64,000 bases of DNA from Halarcobacter sp. (GTDB lineage: Bacteria > Campylobacterota > Campylobacteria > Campylobacterales > Arcobacteraceae): positions 1,674,001-1,738,000 of the forward strand of contig NZ_OY780939.1 in the NCBI RefSeq assembly GCF_963675975.1. Direction: 5' to 3'. Below the pieces are notes generated by a model. That model saw only the letters and a program-made list of their open reading frames with translations. It ran no database searches and was not told the origin of the DNA. The stretch's first letter is position 1, and every line of letters begins with the position of its first letter. Made by a program: the position numbers and the translations under genes. Positions 52,486 to 61,273 of the stretch are shown here, piece by piece.

Positions 52486-54207
52486 ATGCTAAGTATTGAA
52501 AAAAAGATAAAAAATAGAATATTAATTTTAATTTTAATGATTCTAATTAGTACAGGTATCGTAATTATTTCATATGAAAATCATTTAATAAAAAATCACA
52601 TTGAACATGACATCACTACTCAAAATGAAAATATTAATAATACTTTTAATCTTTTTATAGATGAATTAGACAAAAATATTGCAGAAAGAACAAATTTTAT
52701 GCTTAATAAAGAGAGTAGATTAGCATTAAAAAATAAAGATAGAAAACTATTATACAAATATACAAAAAAACATTTCAAAAGAATGAGTGAAAACAATAAA
52801 TATCTTAAGATAATGACTTTTAGATTGACTGATGGAAGTGCATTTTTAAGAGTTCACAAGCCTGAAATGTTTGGAGATAAGCTAAATAAAAAAAGAAAAA
52901 TCATACTAGATACAATACTTACTGAAAAACGACAATTTGGTTTTGAAATTGGCAAATTAAAAATGACACATAGAATTGTAACTCCTATATTTTATGAGGA
53001 TAAATTAATTGGTGTTGTTGAAGTTGGAATTGAACCTGAATATATTATTGAAAAGATGAATAATATTTTTAATATAAAATCATCACTTTTTGTTAAAAAT
53101 GAACAATTAGAATTGTCTTTGCAAAAAGTTGAAAGTAATTATAAATATAAAATTAATGATTTTATTTTTGTTCGAGGAAGTGAATTAATAAGAGATAACT
53201 TGCAAAAAATAAATTTTGATGAAAAAATATCAAAAATAGAGTTTAGAGGAAAAGATTATTATATAGATACTATTAAACTTTTAGATCATAAAAATAATGT
53301 TGCTGCAAAAATGTTAATATCTTATGATTTAACAACTTTTAAAAAAGAGTTTGATGAAATGCTTGAAAAGAATTTGATGATTACTTTTTTAGTAATCATA
53401 ATACTTTTTATAGTGTTAAATATGGGGTTAAATCATTTTTTAAAAAAGATTGATAGTTTATATTTGAATATTTTAAAGAAAGATAAGATGATGTTACATC
53501 AATCTAAACTTGCATCAATGGGTGAAATGATTGGAAATATAGCTCATCAATGGAGACAACCCTTAAGTGTAATATCTACTAGTGCTAGTGGGATTAGGGT
53601 TCAAAATGAATTGGGCGTTTTAACCGATGAAACTCTACATAATTCAATTGATGGAATAGTAAATAGTACAAAATATCTTTCACAAACAATTGATGATTTT
53701 ATGGATTTTGTAAAAAGTGATAAAAGTGCCATAGATTTTGATGTAAAAGAAAATATTGAAAAAAATATTGAAATATTAAAAGGTAGTCTAAAAATTCATC
53801 AAATAAATTTAGTATTAAAGTGTCAAAGTGAGTTTATTAAAGGTTTCCCTAATGAATTAACTCAAGTCTTTATAAATATTGTTCATAATGCAAAAGATGC
53901 CCTAAAAGAGAATAATATAAAAGAAAAATATATATTTATTGAAACAAATAAAACCGATAAAAATATAGAAATAATTATAAAAGACAATGCAAAAGGAATT
54001 CCTAAAAATGTGATAAATAAAGTTTTTGATCCTTATTTTACAACAAAAAATGAATCAAATGGAACAGGTTTGGGACTTTATATGTCATATAGAATTGTAA
54101 CTGAAAGTATGAAAGGTGAAATAAAAGTTGAAAATGTTGAATACGATTTTTATGGAAACAAATATACTGGGGCAATGTTTACAGTATCATTGCCTTTAAA
54201 TAACTAA
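52486..54207 (+). CDS. Membrane sensor histidine kinase with double-cache sensor
   Basis: The 573-residue protein has a membrane helix at about 11-30, an extracytoplasmic sensor with FLRVHKPEMFGDKL (double-cache type 3), a second helix at about 298-316, and a kinase core. The phospho-acceptor segment is SMGEMIGNIAHQWRQPLS with His near residue 353. The ATP-binding lobe shows the N box IVHNAKDAL and G boxes DNAKGIP and GTGLGLYMS. No receiver domain is fused. It converges on the soluble kinase gene with two bases between, next to the Sia-like cluster, whose CheY-like protein may be its partner. Confidence 0.9.
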   Translation: MLSIEKKIKNRILILILMILISTGIVIISYENHLIKNHIEHDITTQNENINNTFNLFIDELDKNIAERTNFMLNKESRLALKNKDRKLLYKYTKKHFKRMSENNKYLKIMTFRLTDGSAFLRVHKPEMFGDKLNKKRKIILDTILTEKRQFGFEIGKLKMTHRIVTPIFYEDKLIGVVEVGIEPEYIIEKMNNIFNIKSSLFVKNEQLELSLQKVESNYKYKINDFIFVRGSELIRDNLQKINFDEKISKIEFRGKDYYIDTIKLLDHKNNVAAKMLISYDLTTFKKEFDEMLEKNLMITFLVIIILFIVLNMGLNHFLKKIDSLYLNILKKDKMMLHQSKLASMGEMIGNIAHQWRQPLSVISTSASGIRVQNELGVLTDETLHNSIDGIVNSTKYLSQTIDDFMDFVKSDKSAIDFDVKENIEKNIEILKGSLKIHQINLVLKCQSEFIKGFPNELTQVFINIVHNAKDALKENNIKEKYIFIETNKTDKNIEIIIKDNAKGIPKNVINKVFDPYFTTKNESNGTGLGLYMSYRIVTESMKGEIKVENVEYDFYGNKYTGAMFTVSLPLNN

Positions 54208-54209
54208 AA

Positions 54210-55154
54210 CTATTTTGGCAAGGCTTGTTTTAGAGTAAACATTGCTCCATCTTTTATATTTTTAGCACTTAAACGAGTATTGTTTTTCTTTGCAATTTGG
54301 CAACTCATATATAAACCAATACCAGTACCTTTCTCTTTTTTTGTGGTAAAGTTAGATTTAAATATTTCATCAATAATATCTTCTTTTATTCCACCTGCAT
54401 TATCGCTTATTTCCAAAATGTTAAGATTGTCTTCTTGATATATTTTTATAATAATTTTTCTATTTTTAATATCTTTTAAAACAAAGGCATCTTTTGAATT
54501 GTTTAAGATATTTAATAAAATATGTTTAAATTCGTTTTCAATCCCCATGATTTCAAAATTATTTATCTCTTGAATTTCAATATCTATTTTATATTTAATA
54601 AATTCATCTTTTATAAACATAAGAACTTTATCAATCATTTCTCTTGTGTTAAAATATGATTGTTCTTTATTTGGTCTAAAAAATGTTCTAAACTCATTTA
54701 ATGTTGTATTCATATGTTCTATAACATCAGCCATTTTCTTTTGAAAATCATCAATATATTTATCATCTATTTGTCCACTTTTATAATCTAAATCTAACAT
54801 ACTTAATTTCAAATTTAATATTCCTAAAGGTTGAGCCCATTGATGTGCTATGGCATCAATCATTTCACCCATAGCTGCAAATTTTGATTGCTCAAGTAGA
54901 ATTTTTTCATTTTTTTCTCTTTTTTCAATCTCTTCAGTAACTTTTTTTTCAAGATTATTTTTATATTCATCTAATTCTTCATTTGCTTCTAATAATCTTA
55001 GTTGCATCTTATCGCTTTGTTTGATAATCTTGTCAAGCCTTTCACTTTTTCTTTTGTAGTCTTCTAATAGGTCAAATAATCCATCTTTAAAATGGTCATA
55101 ATCTTTTTTTAAAAATTTACCAACATATTGTTTATTTAAATTGTCTTTTCTCAT
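54210..55154 (-). CDS. Soluble histidine kinase with coiled-coil N-terminus
   Basis: The 314-residue protein has no membrane helix. A coiled coil (about 25-90) holds the motif DKIIKQSDKMQ at 41-51, then AAMGEMIDAIAHQWAQPLG with His104, an N box LLNILNNSKDAF and G boxes DNAGGIKED and GTGIGLYMS. An almost identical motif (DKIMAQSDKRQ) occurs in the coiled coil of the HD-GYP protein at 60473. It overlaps the SpoIIE-phosphatase gene by four bases and is the last gene of that operon. Confidence 0.88.
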   Translation of the reverse strand: MRKDNLNKQYVGKFLKKDYDHFKDGLFDLLEDYKRKSERLDKIIKQSDKMQLRLLEANEELDEYKNNLEKKVTEEIEKREKNEKILLEQSKFAAMGEMIDAIAHQWAQPLGILNLKLSMLDLDYKSGQIDDKYIDDFQKKMADVIEHMNTTLNEFRTFFRPNKEQSYFNTREMIDKVLMFIKDEFIKYKIDIEIQEINNFEIMGIENEFKHILLNILNNSKDAFVLKDIKNRKIIIKIYQEDNLNILEISDNAGGIKEDIIDEIFKSNFTTKKEKGTGIGLYMSCQIAKKNNTRLSAKNIKDGAMFTLKQALPK

Positions 55155-58100
55155 ATTTTAAATCCTATTAGAGCCATATCATCATTTCTTTCAAAATCAC
55201 CTTGATACTCCATCATTTCATAAAGAAGAATCTCTTGTTGGTCAGCAAATGGTAATTTGTAATTTTCTTCAAGAAGTTTTTTAAATCTTCTTTTACCAAA
55301 TGGAAATCCTTTTTTACCTCCATTTTGGTCTATATATCCATCAGTTGAAATATAAAATTGCATACCTTTGTTTAACTCTATAGTATGCTCTGTAAACTGA
55401 TAATTCTTATCAGATTTTTTATATCCAATAGATTGTCTATCCCCTTTTAATACAGTGAAAACTCCATCCTCTTCATAGAAAAGAGAAGTCTCTGCTCCTG
55501 CAAATTTCATTATATTATTTTTTTTATTATAATAAAGAATTCCACCATCAAAGCCAGCATTTGAAATAGAAGTTTCATCTTCTTGTTTTAATAAATGTTT
55601 CATACTTTTATTAAAAATTGATAATATTTTTGCAGGGTTAACAATCTCATCTGTATTTTTTATATTTGATATAATTTGTCTCTCTATTGCTTTTACCAAC
55701 ATAGTTACAAATGCACCAGGAACTCCATGCCCTGTACAATCAATAACCATTAATATACATTCATCTTCATCTCTTAGTTCTTCAAATAAATATATATCTC
55801 CACCAACAATATCTTTAGGCTTCCAAATTGCAAAATAGTCAATAAAAAATTTTTTAAAAGATGAGTTTTCTGGGATTAATGCATGTTGGATTAAAGAAGC
55901 ATATTCAATACTATCTTGAGTTTGTTGGTGAATAAGTTCAATCTCTTTTTTCGCATTTTCTAAATCTATAGTTCTTTCTTCCACTTTAAGCTCAAGATTT
56001 TTACTTAAATCTTCTACGATTTTTTTATTTGTAATATCTTGACTTATAGCCTTATATCCTATAAGTTTTGAATTTTTATCATAATCTGGTTCTATTTTTG
56101 AAAAAAGCCAATATACTGAGCCATCTTTTCTTTTATTTTTTATTTCACCTTCCCATATTTTTTCATTTTTTAGATTTTTCCAAAGATGTTTAAATATTTT
56201 TTGTGACATATCTGGATGTCGTATTATATTATGTGATTGACCTATTAATTCTTCAATTGTATATCCAGAGGTATTGCAAAATGCAGTACTTACTTTTGTA
56301 ATATTTCCTTTTTTATCTGTATTTGAAAAGATTACATTTTTATCTAAAGATGTTAAAGTATTTTCAAGTTGTTCTTTTTGATTTTTGATATCTGCTGTTT
56401 TCTTATCAACAAGCTGTCTTAATTTTTTATTCCAGTATACTATGATAGCTATAATAATTAGAATGATGATAATTATAGGTAAAACATATGATAAAACTTT
56501 TTTAAGGGAAAAACCTTTATTCTCTTCAACTTTTACCTTAACCCAACCATTATATATTTTTTCTCTATCTTTTTCTGATATTGTTTTAAAAACTTTATTT
56601 ACTATTGACAGCAACTCTGGCATTTTAGGATTTATTAGGTAGTGGTGGTTAAAGTCTTTTCCCGTTTGACCAGCAAGTTTAAGATTATCTTTTCCTATTT
56701 TTGAGATATTATATAGTGCAGGGGCAATATGACCTATAAAAACATCAGCTTCATGGTTAGATACTTTTAATAAAGCTTCAAAAATACTTCTTGTTTCTAT
56801 AATTTTAATATCCGGGTATAGAGCTTTTATGTAATTATAACTTGTAAAATATTTTGGTATAGCAAACACTTTATCTTTGATCTTATCCAGAGATTCAACA
56901 TAATCAATATTTTCATTTGTAACGATAACCATAGGATATGAAGCATATCGATTTGAAACTAAACCTAAAAGTATTTCTTCTTTTGAATCTCCAATTCCAG
57001 GTACTAAATCAATTTCCCCTTTTTTAAATTTATCAAGTACATCAGGCCAAGAGCTAGATGGAACAAATTTAAATTCAATACCTGACACTTCTGATACTAT
57101 ATTTAAATAATCTCCCATAATTCCTGACATAGAACCATTTTCAATAATTGATAAAGGTTTCCAGTTTACTTCACTATATTTTATTACAGTTTTTTTATCT
57201 AACCAATTGTATTCTTTTTTACTAAAATTAATTTTTCTTTTTTCATCAAACCATTTTAGTTTGAGCTTATCTATATCTTGGATAGAGACTTTTCTCATGG
57301 CTTTTGTTATTATTGAATGTAATTGTGGTGCATCATTTCTTACTGCAATATATAAGTTTTCCATCTCTGGATCATCAGCTTTTACATCAGCTGTATATTT
57401 TAAACCTTTAATCACATTTTCATGCATAATATTATTTAGAATTGCCGTTTTACCTAAAGTTGCATCAACTTCTCCATATACTACAGCTTTTATAGTACTA
57501 AGTGTGTCATCATAGGTTATAATTTCTATTTTTGGATATTTGTTTTTTAAATATTTTTCATATACAAAGCCTTTTATAACAGATACTTTTTTTCCAAAAA
57601 GAGACTCTATGTCTATAATATCTTTTCTATTATCTTTTGTTAATATTGAACTTACATTTCTTGCATAAACATTTACGTAAGAGAGCTTTTCTTCCCTATC
57701 TTTTGTTCTTGCAATATTCATCATAATATCAATTTCTTTATTATAGGCTCTATTTAATGATTCATCCCAAGTTCCAGTAACAAACTCTATTTTAAATCCA
57801 GCAATTTTTGATAATAAATTTATATAGTCTATAGAATAGCCAAGTGGAAAACCATTTTTATTGAAGTTAAAAGGTGCCCAATCATATTCATTGTGAACTT
57901 TAACAGTAGGATGTTTATTTAGCCATTCTTTTTCCTCTTTTGTTAACTCTATACTAACCTTTTGTTTTTTTGAACAAACTTCCATTCTACCAATAAGCTC
58001 ATCTTTATAGGTGATTTCATATTTCTCTTTTTTACACTCTATTTGAAGATACACTTCATCAAAATTTTCTTGTATTATTTCATGTTCTCTATTTTTATAT

Positions 58101-58315
58101 AAAAACAAGAATCTTTTGTTTGTCAAAGAATCATATAAAGTGATATAGTTGATTTGTTCATTTTTGTCCATATGATTTTTTAAAATATTAATTACTTCAT
58201 TTTCATCTAAAACATAAAAGGGATTGGCAATTTGATTAGCTATATCTTTATTTGTAATTACAGCAAAGGAGCTAGTAACAAATAGAAATATTGTAAGAAA
58301 TATTTTGAATATCAT
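55151..58315 (-). CDS. Tandem Venus-flytrap / PAS / SpoIIE-type phosphatase receptor (SiaA-like)
   Basis: The 1054-residue protein starts with a signal peptide, followed by two solute-binding (SBP_bac_3) domains at about 150-370 and 375-615, as in BvgS. A membrane helix at about 626-647 leads to an Aer-like PAS domain with SHNIIRHPDMSQ and KNKRKDGSVYWLF, a coiled coil, and a PP2C/SpoIIE phosphatase (about 820-1054). The phosphatase motifs are intact: DIVGGDIY, VIDCTGHGVPGAFV, ISTDGYIDQNGG and ERNDDMALIG. In Pseudomonas the SpoIIE-type SiaA dephosphorylates SiaC; siaB and siaC genes lie in the divergent operon here. It overlaps both neighbours by four bases. Confidence 0.88.
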   Translation of the reverse strand: MIFKIFLTIFLFVTSSFAVITNKDIANQIANPFYVLDENEVINILKNHMDKNEQINYITLYDSLTNKRFLFLYKNREHEIIQENFDEVYLQIECKKEKYEITYKDELIGRMEVCSKKQKVSIELTKEEKEWLNKHPTVKVHNEYDWAPFNFNKNGFPLGYSIDYINLLSKIAGFKIEFVTGTWDESLNRAYNKEIDIMMNIARTKDREEKLSYVNVYARNVSSILTKDNRKDIIDIESLFGKKVSVIKGFVYEKYLKNKYPKIEIITYDDTLSTIKAVVYGEVDATLGKTAILNNIMHENVIKGLKYTADVKADDPEMENLYIAVRNDAPQLHSIITKAMRKVSIQDIDKLKLKWFDEKRKINFSKKEYNWLDKKTVIKYSEVNWKPLSIIENGSMSGIMGDYLNIVSEVSGIEFKFVPSSSWPDVLDKFKKGEIDLVPGIGDSKEEILLGLVSNRYASYPMVIVTNENIDYVESLDKIKDKVFAIPKYFTSYNYIKALYPDIKIIETRSIFEALLKVSNHEADVFIGHIAPALYNISKIGKDNLKLAGQTGKDFNHHYLINPKMPELLSIVNKVFKTISEKDREKIYNGWVKVKVEENKGFSLKKVLSYVLPIIIIILIIIAIIVYWNKKLRQLVDKKTADIKNQKEQLENTLTSLDKNVIFSNTDKKGNITKVSTAFCNTSGYTIEELIGQSHNIIRHPDMSQKIFKHLWKNLKNEKIWEGEIKNKRKDGSVYWLFSKIEPDYDKNSKLIGYKAISQDITNKKIVEDLSKNLELKVEERTIDLENAKKEIELIHQQTQDSIEYASLIQHALIPENSSFKKFFIDYFAIWKPKDIVGGDIYLFEELRDEDECILMVIDCTGHGVPGAFVTMLVKAIERQIISNIKNTDEIVNPAKILSIFNKSMKHLLKQEDETSISNAGFDGGILYYNKKNNIMKFAGAETSLFYEEDGVFTVLKGDRQSIGYKKSDKNYQFTEHTIELNKGMQFYISTDGYIDQNGGKKGFPFGKRRFKKLLEENYKLPFADQQEILLYEMMEYQGDFERNDDMALIGFKI

Positions 58316-59031
58316 TTAAGAGGCTTTATATATTTATTGATACGTTTTAAAGTATTATCTTTAACATTTTTTGAACAGATTAGATATCGTTTATTTCCTT
58401 TTGGGATATTTTTTATCCTAAAAAATTTAAGACTTTTATTTAGTGAATCATCTAATAAAACTTTTGCTTCCTCTTCTGAAATAAAAATATAATCAGCTCT
58501 TTTTGCTGCAATCATTGAAATCATTTTTTTATTATCTGTATAAACTATTTTATTTTTTGTCTTGAACTTTTCTATTTTTTCATCTAAAAATGTACCATAG
58601 GAGTAAGAAGCTTTGGTAAGTAAGCTTAAGTTTTTGTTTTTTAATAAATTATCAATAGAAATATTTTTTAGTATATTTTCATTTTCAGTTCTTGAGATGA
58701 TTCCCAAGGGTTTATCTTGATACAAAGGATAAGAGAACTTTGCAAATTTTTCTCTTTGCATATTTCTAAACCAGCCAATTGCACACATTTTATTTATATT
58801 TGCTTTTATTTCATAAAGGTGTCTTTTGGATGGTTTTTCTTTTAATTGATATTTTATTCCGGAGTATTTTAAAGCTTCTATTGTAGGTGTAGCAACTAAG
58901 CCTTTTATTGAGTTTGAATCTTTTTTTACATAAGGTATACGCTCTTCATATACAATGATTAGAGAATCTTCTGCTTTGAGTAATATTATAAAAAAAGTTG
59001 TTAAAAACAGAATTATTCTAAACATTTTCAT
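58312..59031 (-). CDS. Periplasmic solute-binding protein (SBP_bac_3 type)
   Basis: The 239-residue protein has a signal peptide (about 1-20) and a type-2 periplasmic binding fold with GLVATPTIEALKYSGIKYQL, CAIGWFRNMQREKFAKFSYP and MISMIAAKRADYIFISEEEA. There is no transporter gene next to it. It is the first gene of the operon that encodes the flytrap-phosphatase and kinase, overlapping the former by four bases, so it probably presents a ligand to that receptor or is a receptor component. Confidence 0.85.
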   Translation of the reverse strand: MKMFRIILFLTTFFIILLKAEDSLIIVYEERIPYVKKDSNSIKGLVATPTIEALKYSGIKYQLKEKPSKRHLYEIKANINKMCAIGWFRNMQREKFAKFSYPLYQDKPLGIISRTENENILKNISIDNLLKNKNLSLLTKASYSYGTFLDEKIEKFKTKNKIVYTDNKKMISMIAAKRADYIFISEEEAKVLLDDSLNKSLKFFRIKNIPKGNKRYLICSKNVKDNTLKRINKYIKPLK

Positions 59032-59158
59032 CCTTTAGTATATAATTATATTATAATGTAGATAAAAAGTAATTGCAAAGTTATATTATTTATTATACAA
59101 AAGTTGTATTAAAGTATATTTTTGTAATTATTATTTAAACAAATAATTAAGGCATCTT
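59032..59158. promoter_or_regulatory. Divergent promoter region of the Sia-like cluster
   Basis: The 127-base spacer separates the two signalling operons. It holds TATAAT on the plus strand at 59052-59057 and on the minus strand at 59050-59045, almost back to back, and AAGG seven bases before the CheY-like start. No clear operator palindrome is visible. Confidence 0.5.
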
Positions 59159-59515
59159 ATGAAATTTTTAGTTGTTGATGATTCTAATATTGCAAGGAAA
59201 AGATTAAATTCATACCTAAATGAATTAAATTATATAGTTTTAGGAGAAGCAATTGATGGATTAGATGCTATAGATAAATTTATTTTATTAAAGCCTTCTA
59301 TTGTCACACTAGATTCAGAAATGCCAAATTTAAATGGAATAGATACTGCAAAGAGATTACTTGAAATAAACCCTAATGTAAAAATTATGTTAATAACTTC
59401 TATTATAGATAAAAAAGAGATTATTAATGCATATAGAATAGGGATAAAAAAAGTTATTACAAAACCCTTTTCAATGGAAAAATTAAAAGAATCTATTGAA
59501 GAGATAAAAGGTTAA
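59159..59515 (+). CDS. CheY-like single-domain response regulator
   Basis: The 118-residue protein is a complete receiver: acidic pair Asp7/Asp8, phospho-acceptor Asp52 (TLDSEMP), Thr80 and Lys102 (TKPF). No output domain is present. It starts the plus-strand operon that continues with siaB after three bases. Likely kinases are the two encoded at 52486-55154, both of which lack receivers. Confidence 0.93.
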   Translation: MKFLVVDDSNIARKRLNSYLNELNYIVLGEAIDGLDAIDKFILLKPSIVTLDSEMPNLNGIDTAKRLLEINPNVKIMLITSIIDKKEIINAYRIGIKKVITKPFSMEKLKESIEEIKG

Positions 59516-59518
59516 GAT

Positions 59519-60073
59519 ATGAATATAAAGATGATTCAAGATATTGTAGAAGAAGATGGAATTATATTTTTAACTTATGGTGGTTTTCTTTCTCAATCAT
59601 TAATCTCATCAATGATGGAGGCTTTAGAAAAAGAAGCAAAAGAGAGTGATTTAAATTTAGGTGTAGCAAGTAATATTTTTACTATTTTTATTGAATTGAC
59701 ACAAAATATGATGAATTATTCAAAAACAAAAAATGCTGATTGTGATAAATTGAATCCACAAGGATTGATTGTTGTTACAAAAGATTTAGAAGAAAACTAT
59801 TTTATACACAGTCAAAATATTATTACACAAAAAGATAAAGATAAAATTCAACCAAAATTAGAAGAGTTGATTGATTTAGATAGAGAAGGGGTAAAAAAAA
59901 GATATAGAGAATTAAGAAGAAGTGGTAAAGATACCCATGGCAAAGGTGGGGGAATTGGCTTTTATGAAATTGCAAAAAGAAGTGATGAAATAAAATTTAG
60001 TTTTAGGGAAATAAACAAAGATAAATTTTATTTTCATTTTATAGCAAAAATTGTTACAAATAAGGAGAAGTAA
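59519..60073 (+). CDS. siaB: SiaB-family kinase
   Basis: SiaB in Pseudomonas is a GHKL-fold protein kinase that phosphorylates SiaC. The 184-residue protein shows an N box FIELTQNMMNYSK with Glu59 and Asn63, and a glycine loop GKGGGIGFYEIAKRS at 141-155. It lies three bases after the CheY-like gene and three bases before siaC, so the three are one translation unit. The opposing phosphatase would be the SpoIIE domain encoded at 55151-58315. Confidence 0.86.
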   Translation: MNIKMIQDIVEEDGIIFLTYGGFLSQSLISSMMEALEKEAKESDLNLGVASNIFTIFIELTQNMMNYSKTKNADCDKLNPQGLIVVTKDLEENYFIHSQNIITQKDKDKIQPKLEELIDLDREGVKKRYRELRRSGKDTHGKGGGIGFYEIAKRSDEIKFSFREINKDKFYFHFIAKIVTNKEK

Positions 60074-60076
60074 TTA

Positions 60077-60457
60077 ATGGAAAATTTAATAATCAAGGAA
60101 ACAAAATATACTCCTTCTATAAAACTTGATGTTGAAAAAGGCTTGATTGAACTTATTGGGAAGTCTTATCCTGAAAATACATTTGAGTTTTATAAACCAA
60201 TGTTAGAGTGGGTTGAAGAATATTTTGAAAATAATGGGGATAAAAAAACTATAGTAAATATGGAGATAATTTACTTTAATTCAAGTAGTTCTAAACTATT
60301 TTTTGATTTTTTTGACCTTTTAGAAGAAGCACATAATAATGACAAGTCTATTGAAATAAATTGGATTTATGATGAAGAAAATGAAAGTGCTTTAGAAGCT
60401 GGTGAAGATTTTAAAGAGGATTTCGTAGGTTTAAATTTTAATTTAATTGAAAAATAA
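60077..60457 (+). CDS. siaC: SiaC-family regulatory phosphoprotein
   Basis: SiaC switches its partner on or off depending on phosphorylation by SiaB and dephosphorylation by SiaA. The 126-residue protein matches the family (DUF1987) throughout: SIKLDVEKGLIELIGKSYPE, the central YFNSSSSK at 66-73, and INWIYDEENESALEAGEDF. The family centre usually reads NTSSSK with a phospho-threonine; here it is NSSSSK, so serine would be the acceptor. The HD-GYP gene follows after fifteen bases, in the place where siaD lies in Pseudomonas. Confidence 0.86.
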   Translation: MENLIIKETKYTPSIKLDVEKGLIELIGKSYPENTFEFYKPMLEWVEEYFENNGDKKTIVNMEIIYFNSSSSKLFFDFFDLLEEAHNNDKSIEINWIYDEENESALEAGEDFKEDFVGLNFNLIEK

Positions 60458-60472
60458 TTTATTGGAAATCAT

Positions 60473-61273
60473 ATGTTTAGAAATGAAAATAAACTAGTTT
60501 CAGAACTTCACGAATTACAAGATAGCTTTAAAAAAACAACTGATAAGTTAATAAAAGATATTAATAGACATGATAAAATCATGGCTCAAAGTGATAAAAG
60601 ACAACAAAAAGAGTATGATGAACTTCAAATAAGACTTAAAGAGGTTGAGGCTTTAAGTAAAGAGATAGAAGAGACTCAAAGAGAAGTTGTATTTACTATG
60701 GGTGCTATTGGAGAAAGTAGAAGTAAAGAAACTGGAAACCATGTAAAAAGAGTGGCTGAATATTCGAAAGTATTTGCTTTATATTATGGATTGCCCAAAA
60801 AAGAAGCAGAGATGTTAAAACAAGCAAGTCCTATGCACGATATAGGAAAAGTTGCTATTCCTGATTCAGTATTAAATAAACCAGGAAGATTTAACGAAGA
60901 GGAAAGAAAAATCATGGATACCCATGCTCAATTGGGTTATGATATGTTAAAACACTCAAATAGATCTTTGTTAAAATGTGCAGCAACAGTAGCTTATGAA
61001 CATCATGAAAAGTGGGATGGAACAGGATATCCAAACAAGTTAAAAGGTGAAGATATTCACATCTATGGAAGAATAACAGCAATGGCTGATGTTTTTGATG
61101 CTTTAGGTAGTGATAGATGTTATAAAAAAGCTTGGGATGATGAGAGAATTTTTAATCTTTTTAAAGAGGAAAAAGGAAAACATTTTGACCCAAAACTTGT
61201 AGATATATTTTTTGAACATTTAGATGATTTTTTAGAGATAAGAGAGAGTTTAAAAGATGAATATGAGGGTTAA
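60473..61273 (+). CDS. HD-GYP c-di-GMP phosphodiesterase with coiled-coil N-terminus
   Basis: The 266-residue protein has a coiled coil (about 5-72, with DKIMAQSDKRQ at 34-44) and a full HD-GYP domain. Metal and catalytic residues are present: His90, HDIGK at 122-126, YEHHEKWDGTGYP at 175-187, and ADVFDAL. HD-GYP enzymes hydrolyse c-di-GMP. There is no receiver domain, so control must come from another protein, most simply SiaC or the CheY-like regulator of the same operon. It ends the operon and converges with the kinase gene at 61275. Confidence 0.9.
   Translation: MFRNENKLVSELHELQDSFKKTTDKLIKDINRHDKIMAQSDKRQQKEYDELQIRLKEVEALSKEIEETQREVVFTMGAIGESRSKETGNHVKRVAEYSKVFALYYGLPKKEAEMLKQASPMHDIGKVAIPDSVLNKPGRFNEEERKIMDTHAQLGYDMLKHSNRSLLKCAATVAYEHHEKWDGTGYPNKLKGEDIHIYGRITAMADVFDALGSDRCYKKAWDDERIFNLFKEEKGKHFDPKLVDIFFEHLDDFLEIRESLKDEYEG

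Follow-up and report, generated by a model that had tools for sequence, protein, structure and literature searches.

In the SiaABCD system of Pseudomonas aeruginosa, a SiaA-type phosphatase, the kinase SiaB and the phosphoprotein SiaC operate with the diguanylate cyclase SiaD, which is encoded directly after siaC and bears on its stalk the motif bound by SiaC, according to two reports (PMC7647112; PMC8457831). The crystal structure in the second depicts SiaC gripping this stalk motif via SiaD residues R74, K77, V78, R80, I81, S82, D83, R84, Y85, Q86, M88, R90 and D91; S82 and Q86 hold T68 of SiaC, phosphorylation of T68 blocks binding, and unphosphorylated SiaC activates the cyclase by ordering its dimeric stalk (PMC8457831). 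The same text names the HptB-HptR-HsbA/HsbD and BgrSTUWV/BgrR systems, in which a phospho-controlled STAS-like protein likewise controls a cyclic di-GMP (c-di-GMP) enzyme; as described there, they stand apart in that STAS proteins are not of the SiaC family and the named targets are cyclases.

Herein, we describe a locus from Halarcobacter sp., contained in a window of 64,000 nucleotides (contig NZ_OY780939.1, positions 1,674,001 to 1,738,000) that forms part of a 3.27 Mb genome in a single contig. The locus comprises a predicted SiaABC module with an HD-GYP gene in the place of siaD and a histidine kinase gene in a divergent operon, and both of these additional products appear to carry the SiaC-docking motif of SiaD. 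All positions below are those of the window.

The Sia core and its two motif-bearing neighbours

Open reading frame (ORF) coordinates and Pfam matches define two divergent operons. The forward-strand operon (59159-61273, four genes) runs from a CheY-like gene through siaB and siaC to the HD-GYP gene, while the reverse-strand operon (54210-59031, three genes) encodes a small SBP_bac_3-like protein, a 1,054-residue receptor and a soluble histidine kinase, with adjoining genes sharing 4 bases. A preliminary description of the stretch had set out this gene set and order, and every gene it named was found in place with a matching Pfam family; left unnamed there was the small SBP_bac_3-like gene that opens the reverse-strand operon (58312-59031; SBP_bac_3 E 1.5e-4, below the Pfam cut-off).

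The receptor (55151-58315, reverse strand) contains two SBP_bac_3 stretches, a PAS domain and a SpoIIE domain by Pfam (SpoIIE E 2.7e-18). The sole PDB relative of the SpoIIE domain at E ≤ 0.001 is 6k4e (7.1e-45), i.e., the PP2C domain of SiaA, and the GGD, DC.GHG, STDG and DD motifs are kept, leaving the metal motifs intact. The sensory half (both SBP stretches plus PAS) is unlike P. aeruginosa SiaA, and the full-length NCBIfam SiaA equivalog is not reached (267 of 700 bits, over residues 767-1054 only). The SiaB-family protein kinase (184 residues; 59519-60073, forward strand; DUF6272 E 1.3e-31) passes the NCBIfam SiaB_fam_kinase model with 132.5 bits against a cut-off of 85, without reaching the SiaB equivalog (80.7 of 225 bits). 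SiaC itself (126 residues; 60077-60457, forward strand) is the only SiaC match genome-wide; it matches PF09345 (145 bits, cut-off 24.5; E 8.1e-43), does not reach the NCBIfam SiaC equivalog (123 of 150 bits), and has as its best PDB relatives the P. aeruginosa SiaC chains of 6kko and 7e6g (E 7.1e-24), the latter being the SiaC-SiaD complex. Its YFNSSS segment aligns with YLNTSS of P. aeruginosa, placing a hydroxyl site at the head of helix 2, such that Ser69 (codon 60281-60283, forward strand) is the predicted phospho-site where P. aeruginosa has Thr68 (role of T68 from PMC7647112). With a SiaC-family protein, a SiaB-family kinase, a SiaA-type phosphatase and a hydroxyl phospho-site all present, the locus qualifies by sequence as a SiaABC module in which phosphorylation is predicted.

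Directly after siaC, Pfam places an HD-GYP gene (60473-61273, forward strand; HD_5 E 4e-34) and not a GGDEF gene, and its product has no receiver domain in the Pfam scan; both points had been claimed in the preliminary description. This 266-residue protein, an N-terminal stalk helix followed by an HD-GYP domain, is a predicted c-di-GMP phosphodiesterase, with HDIGK and HHEKWDGTGYP present, and with HD.GK, HHE and GYP invariant in 20/20 aligned proteins picked from among motif matches. A close PDB relative is 4mcw (E 1.3e-64), or PmGH, an HD-GYP-type c-di-GMP phosphodiesterase. The HD-GYP signatures of the two align; 4mcw differs in its longer chain (361 residues), of which the N-terminal half is unmatched by the Halarcobacter protein, and in its absence from the docking-profile matches. 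An AlphaFold2 model built with 20 sequences (mean predicted local distance difference test [pLDDT] score of 83), for which 4mcw is the best PDB match (49% identity over 201 columns), renders residues 7-81 as one 75-residue helix that holds the docking motif and runs into the HD-GYP domain, with mean confidence dropping to 58-69 in blocks of residues 61-90. As a query against the PDB, the N-terminus alone returned chance helices only.

The soluble histidine kinase (314 residues; 54210-55154, reverse strand; HATPase_c E 1.2e-12) keeps its H-box (AHQW.QPL) along with DNAGG and GTGIG motifs, and also begins with a stalk. Within the two stalks, the HD-GYP protein reads R-H-D-K-I-M-A-Q-S-D-K-R-Q-Q-K-E-Y-D (residues 32-49, R..KI...SDK.Q....D; 60566-60619, forward strand) and the kinase reads R-L-D-K-I-I-K-Q-S-D-K-M-Q-L-R-L-L-E (residues 39-56, R..KI...SDK.Q....E; 54987-55040, reverse strand). 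Aligned by eye with the 13 SiaC contacts of SiaD, the former has 6 identical, 2 conservative and 5 different residues, and the latter 5, 4 and 4, respectively. Among aligned proteins chosen from motif matches, R32, I36, S40, D41, Q44 and D49 of the HD-GYP motif are invariant in 20/20, as are R39, I43, S47 and D48 of the kinase motif in 8/8 histidine kinases.

A profile of 34-residue stalk segments (A2), made from 20 proteins of siaC loci from the family Arcobacteraceae and the class Campylobacteria with no Pseudomonas row, was run against 177,635 distinct PDB sequences. Its first match was 7e6g_A, i.e., SiaD in complex with SiaC (whole-chain E 0.032; next match 1.8), aligned over stretches 43-55 and 65-88 that contain both known SiaC sites, S50/Q54 and S82/Q86 (chain numbering being one higher than in PMC8457831). 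On this sequence evidence, both Halarcobacter proteins are taken to carry the SiaC-docking motif of SiaD, and the kinase of the divergent operon is a second likely SiaC client. The link from SiaC to the HD-GYP protein proposed in the preliminary description thus gains support from a shared docking motif, while the kinase had been overlooked there. In place of the cyclase output of SiaABCD stands an HD-GYP phosphodiesterase, probably joined by a histidine kinase, and the Thr phospho-site gives way to Ser.

The remaining features of the locus are a single CheY-like receiver domain (118 residues; 59159-59515, forward strand; Response_reg E 3.9e-23) and the divergent intergenic region (59032-59158), where a consensus scan places promoter-like sites on both strands; the promoter and terminator scan stayed near shuffle level, with 20 promoter-like sites in the scanned divergent region against a shuffle mean of 17.2. 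A dCache histidine kinase gene (52486-54204) that yields no docking-motif match adjoins the locus.

Proposed mechanism and its sign

We consider it probable that the locus encodes a SiaABC phospho-switch with two clients, the HD-GYP phosphodiesterase and the histidine kinase, both activated by docking. A ligand at the SBP-PAS-SpoIIE receptor would set the phosphatase against the kinase SiaB, and the balance between these two would determine the phosphorylation state of SiaC at Ser69. Unphosphorylated SiaC would clamp the motif on the coiled-coil stalks of the HD-GYP protein and the neighbouring kinase, as on SiaD in Pseudomonas, and would thus fix the rotational state of each stalk and hence of the output dimer. 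As with SiaD, it is the unphosphorylated form of SiaC that would order the two stalks, and a single motif leads us to expect two SiaC per dimer. Docking would activate both the HD-GYP protein and the kinase, such that c-di-GMP, a signal for settling, would fall when SiaC is unphosphorylated. We infer binding, phospho-control and activation alike, and the sign of activation is the least certain step.

That sign could be reversed: SiaC may dock on the HD-GYP stalk yet keep the enzyme inactive, with phosphorylation by SiaB freeing the phosphodiesterase. The docking evidence fits both signs equally, and activation is known for SiaD alone in the literature searched. There, ordering of the dimeric stalk by SiaC that lacks the phosphate switches the enzyme on, which argues against a reversal, though weakly where a different enzyme is concerned. 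We regard such a reversal as unlikely, albeit a genuine contender.

Co-occurrence of the motif with SiaC

The Halarcobacter genome holds 53 GGDEF matches and 12 HD-GYP matches beside its one SiaC, and at E ≤ 0.01 profile A2 finds in it two matches only, the HD-GYP protein (9.3e-15) and the histidine kinase (8.4e-13) of the locus. Since A2 misses divergent SiaD-type stalks, the genome was rescanned in three ways: (i) a broader profile, A5, returned at E ≤ 1 the same two proteins plus a third at 0.9 that covers profile positions 16-30; (ii) profiles run over all 53 GGDEF stretches gave no match covering the SD..Q core (best 0.24); and (iii) 47 GGDEF-like ORFs in 46 of those stretches, scanned with a loose form of the motif, yielded none. 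The motif is thus borne by 1/12 HD-GYP and 0/53 GGDEF matches. A cyclase elsewhere in the genome as the SiaC client was rejected, as A2, A5 and the stretch scans found no motif-bearing GGDEF protein.

Across Arcobacteraceae, SiaC is present in 22/104 genomes. At 0.01, A2 finds the motif in 22 genomes, 21 of them with SiaC, the match in the remaining genome (G081, E 0.009) covering positions 4-24 only. At 1e-3, the motif occurs in 21/22 genomes with SiaC versus 0/82 without it (Fisher 4e-21, a value that overstates independence, as do its like, since family and class samples overlap and all rows are related). In Campylobacteria, for which at most 10 (SiaC) or 19 (motif) candidates were scored per genome, SiaC was found in 21/397 genomes (one of them under the cut-off) and the motif in 17; 16 genomes have both, i.e., 16/21 with SiaC versus 1/376 without. 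Among 369 gammaproteobacterial genomes, SiaC occurs in 10 and the motif (by A5) in 5, with 4 in common. In five of the six SiaC-bearing genomes missed by A5, siaC adjoins a gene for a GGDEF protein in whose stalk a [SG]D..Q motif can be read; at the sixth locus (L272), a hybrid kinase with an ND.QQ variant lies nearby. In 20 whole genomes chosen from named records, several of which supplied rows to A5 (as did the gammaproteobacterial sample), an A5 match was present in 20/20 and single in 14; in Desulfonema magnum (G469), the protein matched is a class III cyclase encoded next to a second siaC.

Two further observations concern motifs away from siaC. One gammaproteobacterial genome with no SiaC match (G655; L260, L263) encodes two motif-bearing HATPase proteins, and motif-bearing histidine kinases occur on stretches in which no siaC is seen (L277, L278, L279 and L281, from G061, G075 and G073), such that clients may lie in trans. 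In viral contigs, 110 pattern matches included no SiaC relative.

Gene order in the family shows that the arrangement is not a chance one. In 23 of 27 siaC loci from 22 Arcobacteraceae genomes, a motif-bearing HD-GYP gene lies downstream of siaC on the same strand (within 1,500 bases), either adjoining it or one gene of ~300 residues away; of the other four, L079 runs off the contig end, L069 has a motif-bearing histidine kinase, and L068 and L081 have neither. Within the fetched stretches, SiaB was found in 25/27 loci, SpoIIE in 22/27, a small receiver in 12/27 and a motif-bearing histidine kinase in 9/27. As read from these sequences, HD-GYP wiring is widespread and not special to the Halarcobacter genome. 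The preliminary description had proposed a search of relatives for a conserved siaB-siaC-HD-GYP order, which these counts bear out, and had named as fatal to its reading either the lack of a conserved adjacency or a cyclase encoded elsewhere as the client; sequence searches for these two outcomes found neither.

SiaC and the HD-GYP protein could still be mere neighbours, with SiaC acting elsewhere and the phosphodiesterase either constitutive or under histidine kinase and CheY-like control. A kinase and a receiver do share the locus, and the docking link is one of sequence; however, the HD-GYP protein lacks a receiver domain of its own, the motif tracks SiaC across genomes, a third motif match at 0.01 is lacking in the Halarcobacter genome, and HD-GYP genes outnumber motif-bearing kinases and small receivers in the family loci. 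We thus judge mere adjacency improbable. Alternatively, SiaC could in truth address the histidine kinase, the motif in the HD-GYP protein being left over from an ancestral stalk of the SiaD type, as a motif-bearing kinase is the sole motif match in loci of records named Helicobacteraceae, Sulfurimonas or Sulfurovum (L140, L145, L149, L154, L168, L177). The same family counts (23/27 versus 9/27) speak against this proposal, as does retention of the motif in HD-GYP proteins of several classes (rows chosen among motif matches), leaving it very improbable. Lastly, that the motif is ordinary coiled-coil or signalling-helix sequence, with the stalks simply alike, can be dismissed as scarcely credible, since for all that the segment is helical and charged, 30/30 column-permuted A2 profiles of identical composition match 0 of 5,600 ORFs (real profile, 48), and the motif is missing from the GGDEF matches and the other HD-GYP matches of the genome and, at 1e-3, from the 82 family genomes without SiaC.

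Range of outputs and implications

The proposed two-client switch would fall within a broader pattern. Among the best 80 of 156 relatives with named records (27 Campylobacterota and 53 others, by record title), A2 alone finds the motif in 40/80 loci at 1e-3, including 17/53 outside Campylobacterota. An iterated profile finds a motif-bearing ORF in 65/80, in 57 of which it starts ≤120 bases from the end of the siaC match; as that profile was trained on its own matches, the 65/80 is descriptive only and the A2 figures are plainer. Classified with a set of small local profiles plus a pattern for GGDEF, the 73 motif-bearing ORFs of these loci comprise 26 HD-GYP, 22 GGDEF, 9 HATPase, 3 HATPase with receiver, 2 SpoIIE and 11 other proteins; within the last group, Pfam identifies some as class III cyclases, some as HATPase-CheX proteins and one as a PAS protein. 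Records in which the output is an HD-GYP protein include those named Vibrio sp. HA2012, Colwellia, Pseudoalteromonas, Marinobacterium, Sulfurimonas and Desulfobacterales. In the SiaC tree, the starred set of 23 rows that holds the window mixes Campylobacterota and Gammaproteobacteria; an HD-GYP gene adjoins siaC in 18, follows a gene of ~300 residues in 3, and lies 1.5 kb away in one (L161), with a histidine kinase in the other (L205). On the full tree of 81 rows, of which 60 carry labels, the output type must change at least 10 times; with 36/76 inner branches unresolved, this uncontrolled figure is not claimed as a number of output swaps.

Several siaC loci merit individual mention. The protein of ~300 residues between siaC and the HD-GYP gene (L132:7802-8701, L141:5202-6113, L173:8381-9280; also L058, L061, L063 and L075) is probably a degenerate SiaD, as judged from a model of the L132 protein: it has no Pfam match, and its low-confidence AlphaFold2 model (mean pLDDT 60), compared with the PDB, matches SiaD best (7e6g_A, 2.8e-8) and GGDEF folds next. 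SpoIIE-type phosphatases bearing the motif (L162:855-1844; L178:4051-4923 and L271:3494-4504, both reverse strand) could be SiaC clients or be recruited by SiaC, and motif-bearing class III nucleotide cyclases of the Guanylate_cyc type (L151:8375-9595; L086:685-1683 and L282:2587-3651, both reverse strand) possibly represent a cyclic AMP or cyclic GMP branch. A recurring arrangement (L142:8383-10533, L146, L148, L283) has siaC followed by a motif-bearing protein of ~720 residues and two receiver genes; the L142 protein, the sole one scanned, is HATPase-CheX by Pfam. Single ORFs matching SiaB plus SiaC (313 residues; L080:6192-7130, reverse strand) and SpoIIE plus SiaB (1,590 residues; L073:782-5551) are possible fusions or assembly effects, and in a genome of the same genus (L057:6658-7453) a frameshift in either the gene or the assembly breaks the HD-GYP gene into two ORFs that overlap (155 and 119 residues).

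The distance between motif and output domain is also constrained. From motif serine to catalytic HD, short HD-GYP proteins have 68, 75 or 82 residues in 41/41 cases (82 in 38). From motif serine to D.LT, GGDEF proteins have 21, 28, 35 or 49 in 22/23 (15/16 plus 7 more), SiaD itself having 21; a PAS-like stretch intervenes in the exception (138). From motif serine to the H-box histidine, histidine kinases have 36, 43, 50 or 57 in 21/22 (exception, 75), while three further kinases judged by eye gave 36, 23 and no H-box in view. For class III cyclases, the values are 51, 51 and 58. Within each of these classes, nearly all distances are thus separated by multiples of seven, the step that an unbroken coiled coil requires. 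Such spacing is to be expected of coiled-coil linkers generally, so it speaks for mechanical coupling rather than for SiaC binding itself.

Certain observations weigh against a clamp acting on both Halarcobacter proteins. At the interface, contacts R80, I81, Y85, M88 and R90 of SiaD differ in the HD-GYP protein and four of 13 differ in the kinase, SiaD has two motifs where these proteins have one each, and the PDB match is modest, its single stretches alone reaching E values of 0.82 and 630. A long HD-GYP subtype (91, 93, 94 or 309 residues; 10/11 with a landmark) breaks the spacing rule. Across genomes, 15 of the best 80 loci lack a motif-bearing ORF (one, L130, ends just past siaC), one family genome (G090) has SiaC and no motif, and genomes G414 (Campylobacteria) and G655 bear the motif with no SiaC match. 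In addition, A5 found only 4/10 gammaproteobacterial genomes with SiaC, so the profiles under-detect divergent SiaD-type stalks. Because A2 takes its rows from SiaC-bearing genomes, some of which belong to the samples, the positive counts of co-occurrence are in part predetermined; the absence of the motif from genomes without SiaC is not.

On balance, the chances are somewhat better than even that SiaC is a general phospho-controlled coiled-coil clamp and not a cyclase activator, acting via a portable docking helix in heptad register with the output. DUF1987 proteins have been suggested to modulate adjacent proteins (PMC8457831, eLife 2021), so the general idea was anticipated; the motif-based wiring was not met in the largely open-access literature searched, in which SiaD was the sole SiaC client encountered, with no HD-GYP or histidine kinase client. 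The preliminary description holds as to an HD-GYP gene replacing siaD in a conserved order, now with a shared motif, and had missed both the kinase client and the wide spread of the arrangement. HD-GYP adjacency alone would be a variant; what makes the logic of the module testable is a docking motif that is shared, specific and found on outputs of unlike kinds.

The motif gives the suggestion that DUF1987 proteins modulate their neighbours a residue-level test, and a readable docking motif turns the annotation "SiaC family" into testable wiring, i.e., which of the dozens of c-di-GMP proteins in a genome the switch addresses. If the proposal is correct, SiaC proteins would set diguanylate cyclases, HD-GYP phosphodiesterases, histidine kinases, class III nucleotide cyclases and PP2C phosphatases, and the single SiaC of this Halarcobacter locus would, by setting the phosphodiesterase and the kinase together, join a Ser/Thr partner switch, c-di-GMP signalling and two-component signalling in one node. 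These loci would also offer a system where a docked protein may set coiled-coil register in different output classes, and suggest how one phospho-switch could plug into kinases as well as into enzymes of opposite effect, making or destroying c-di-GMP.

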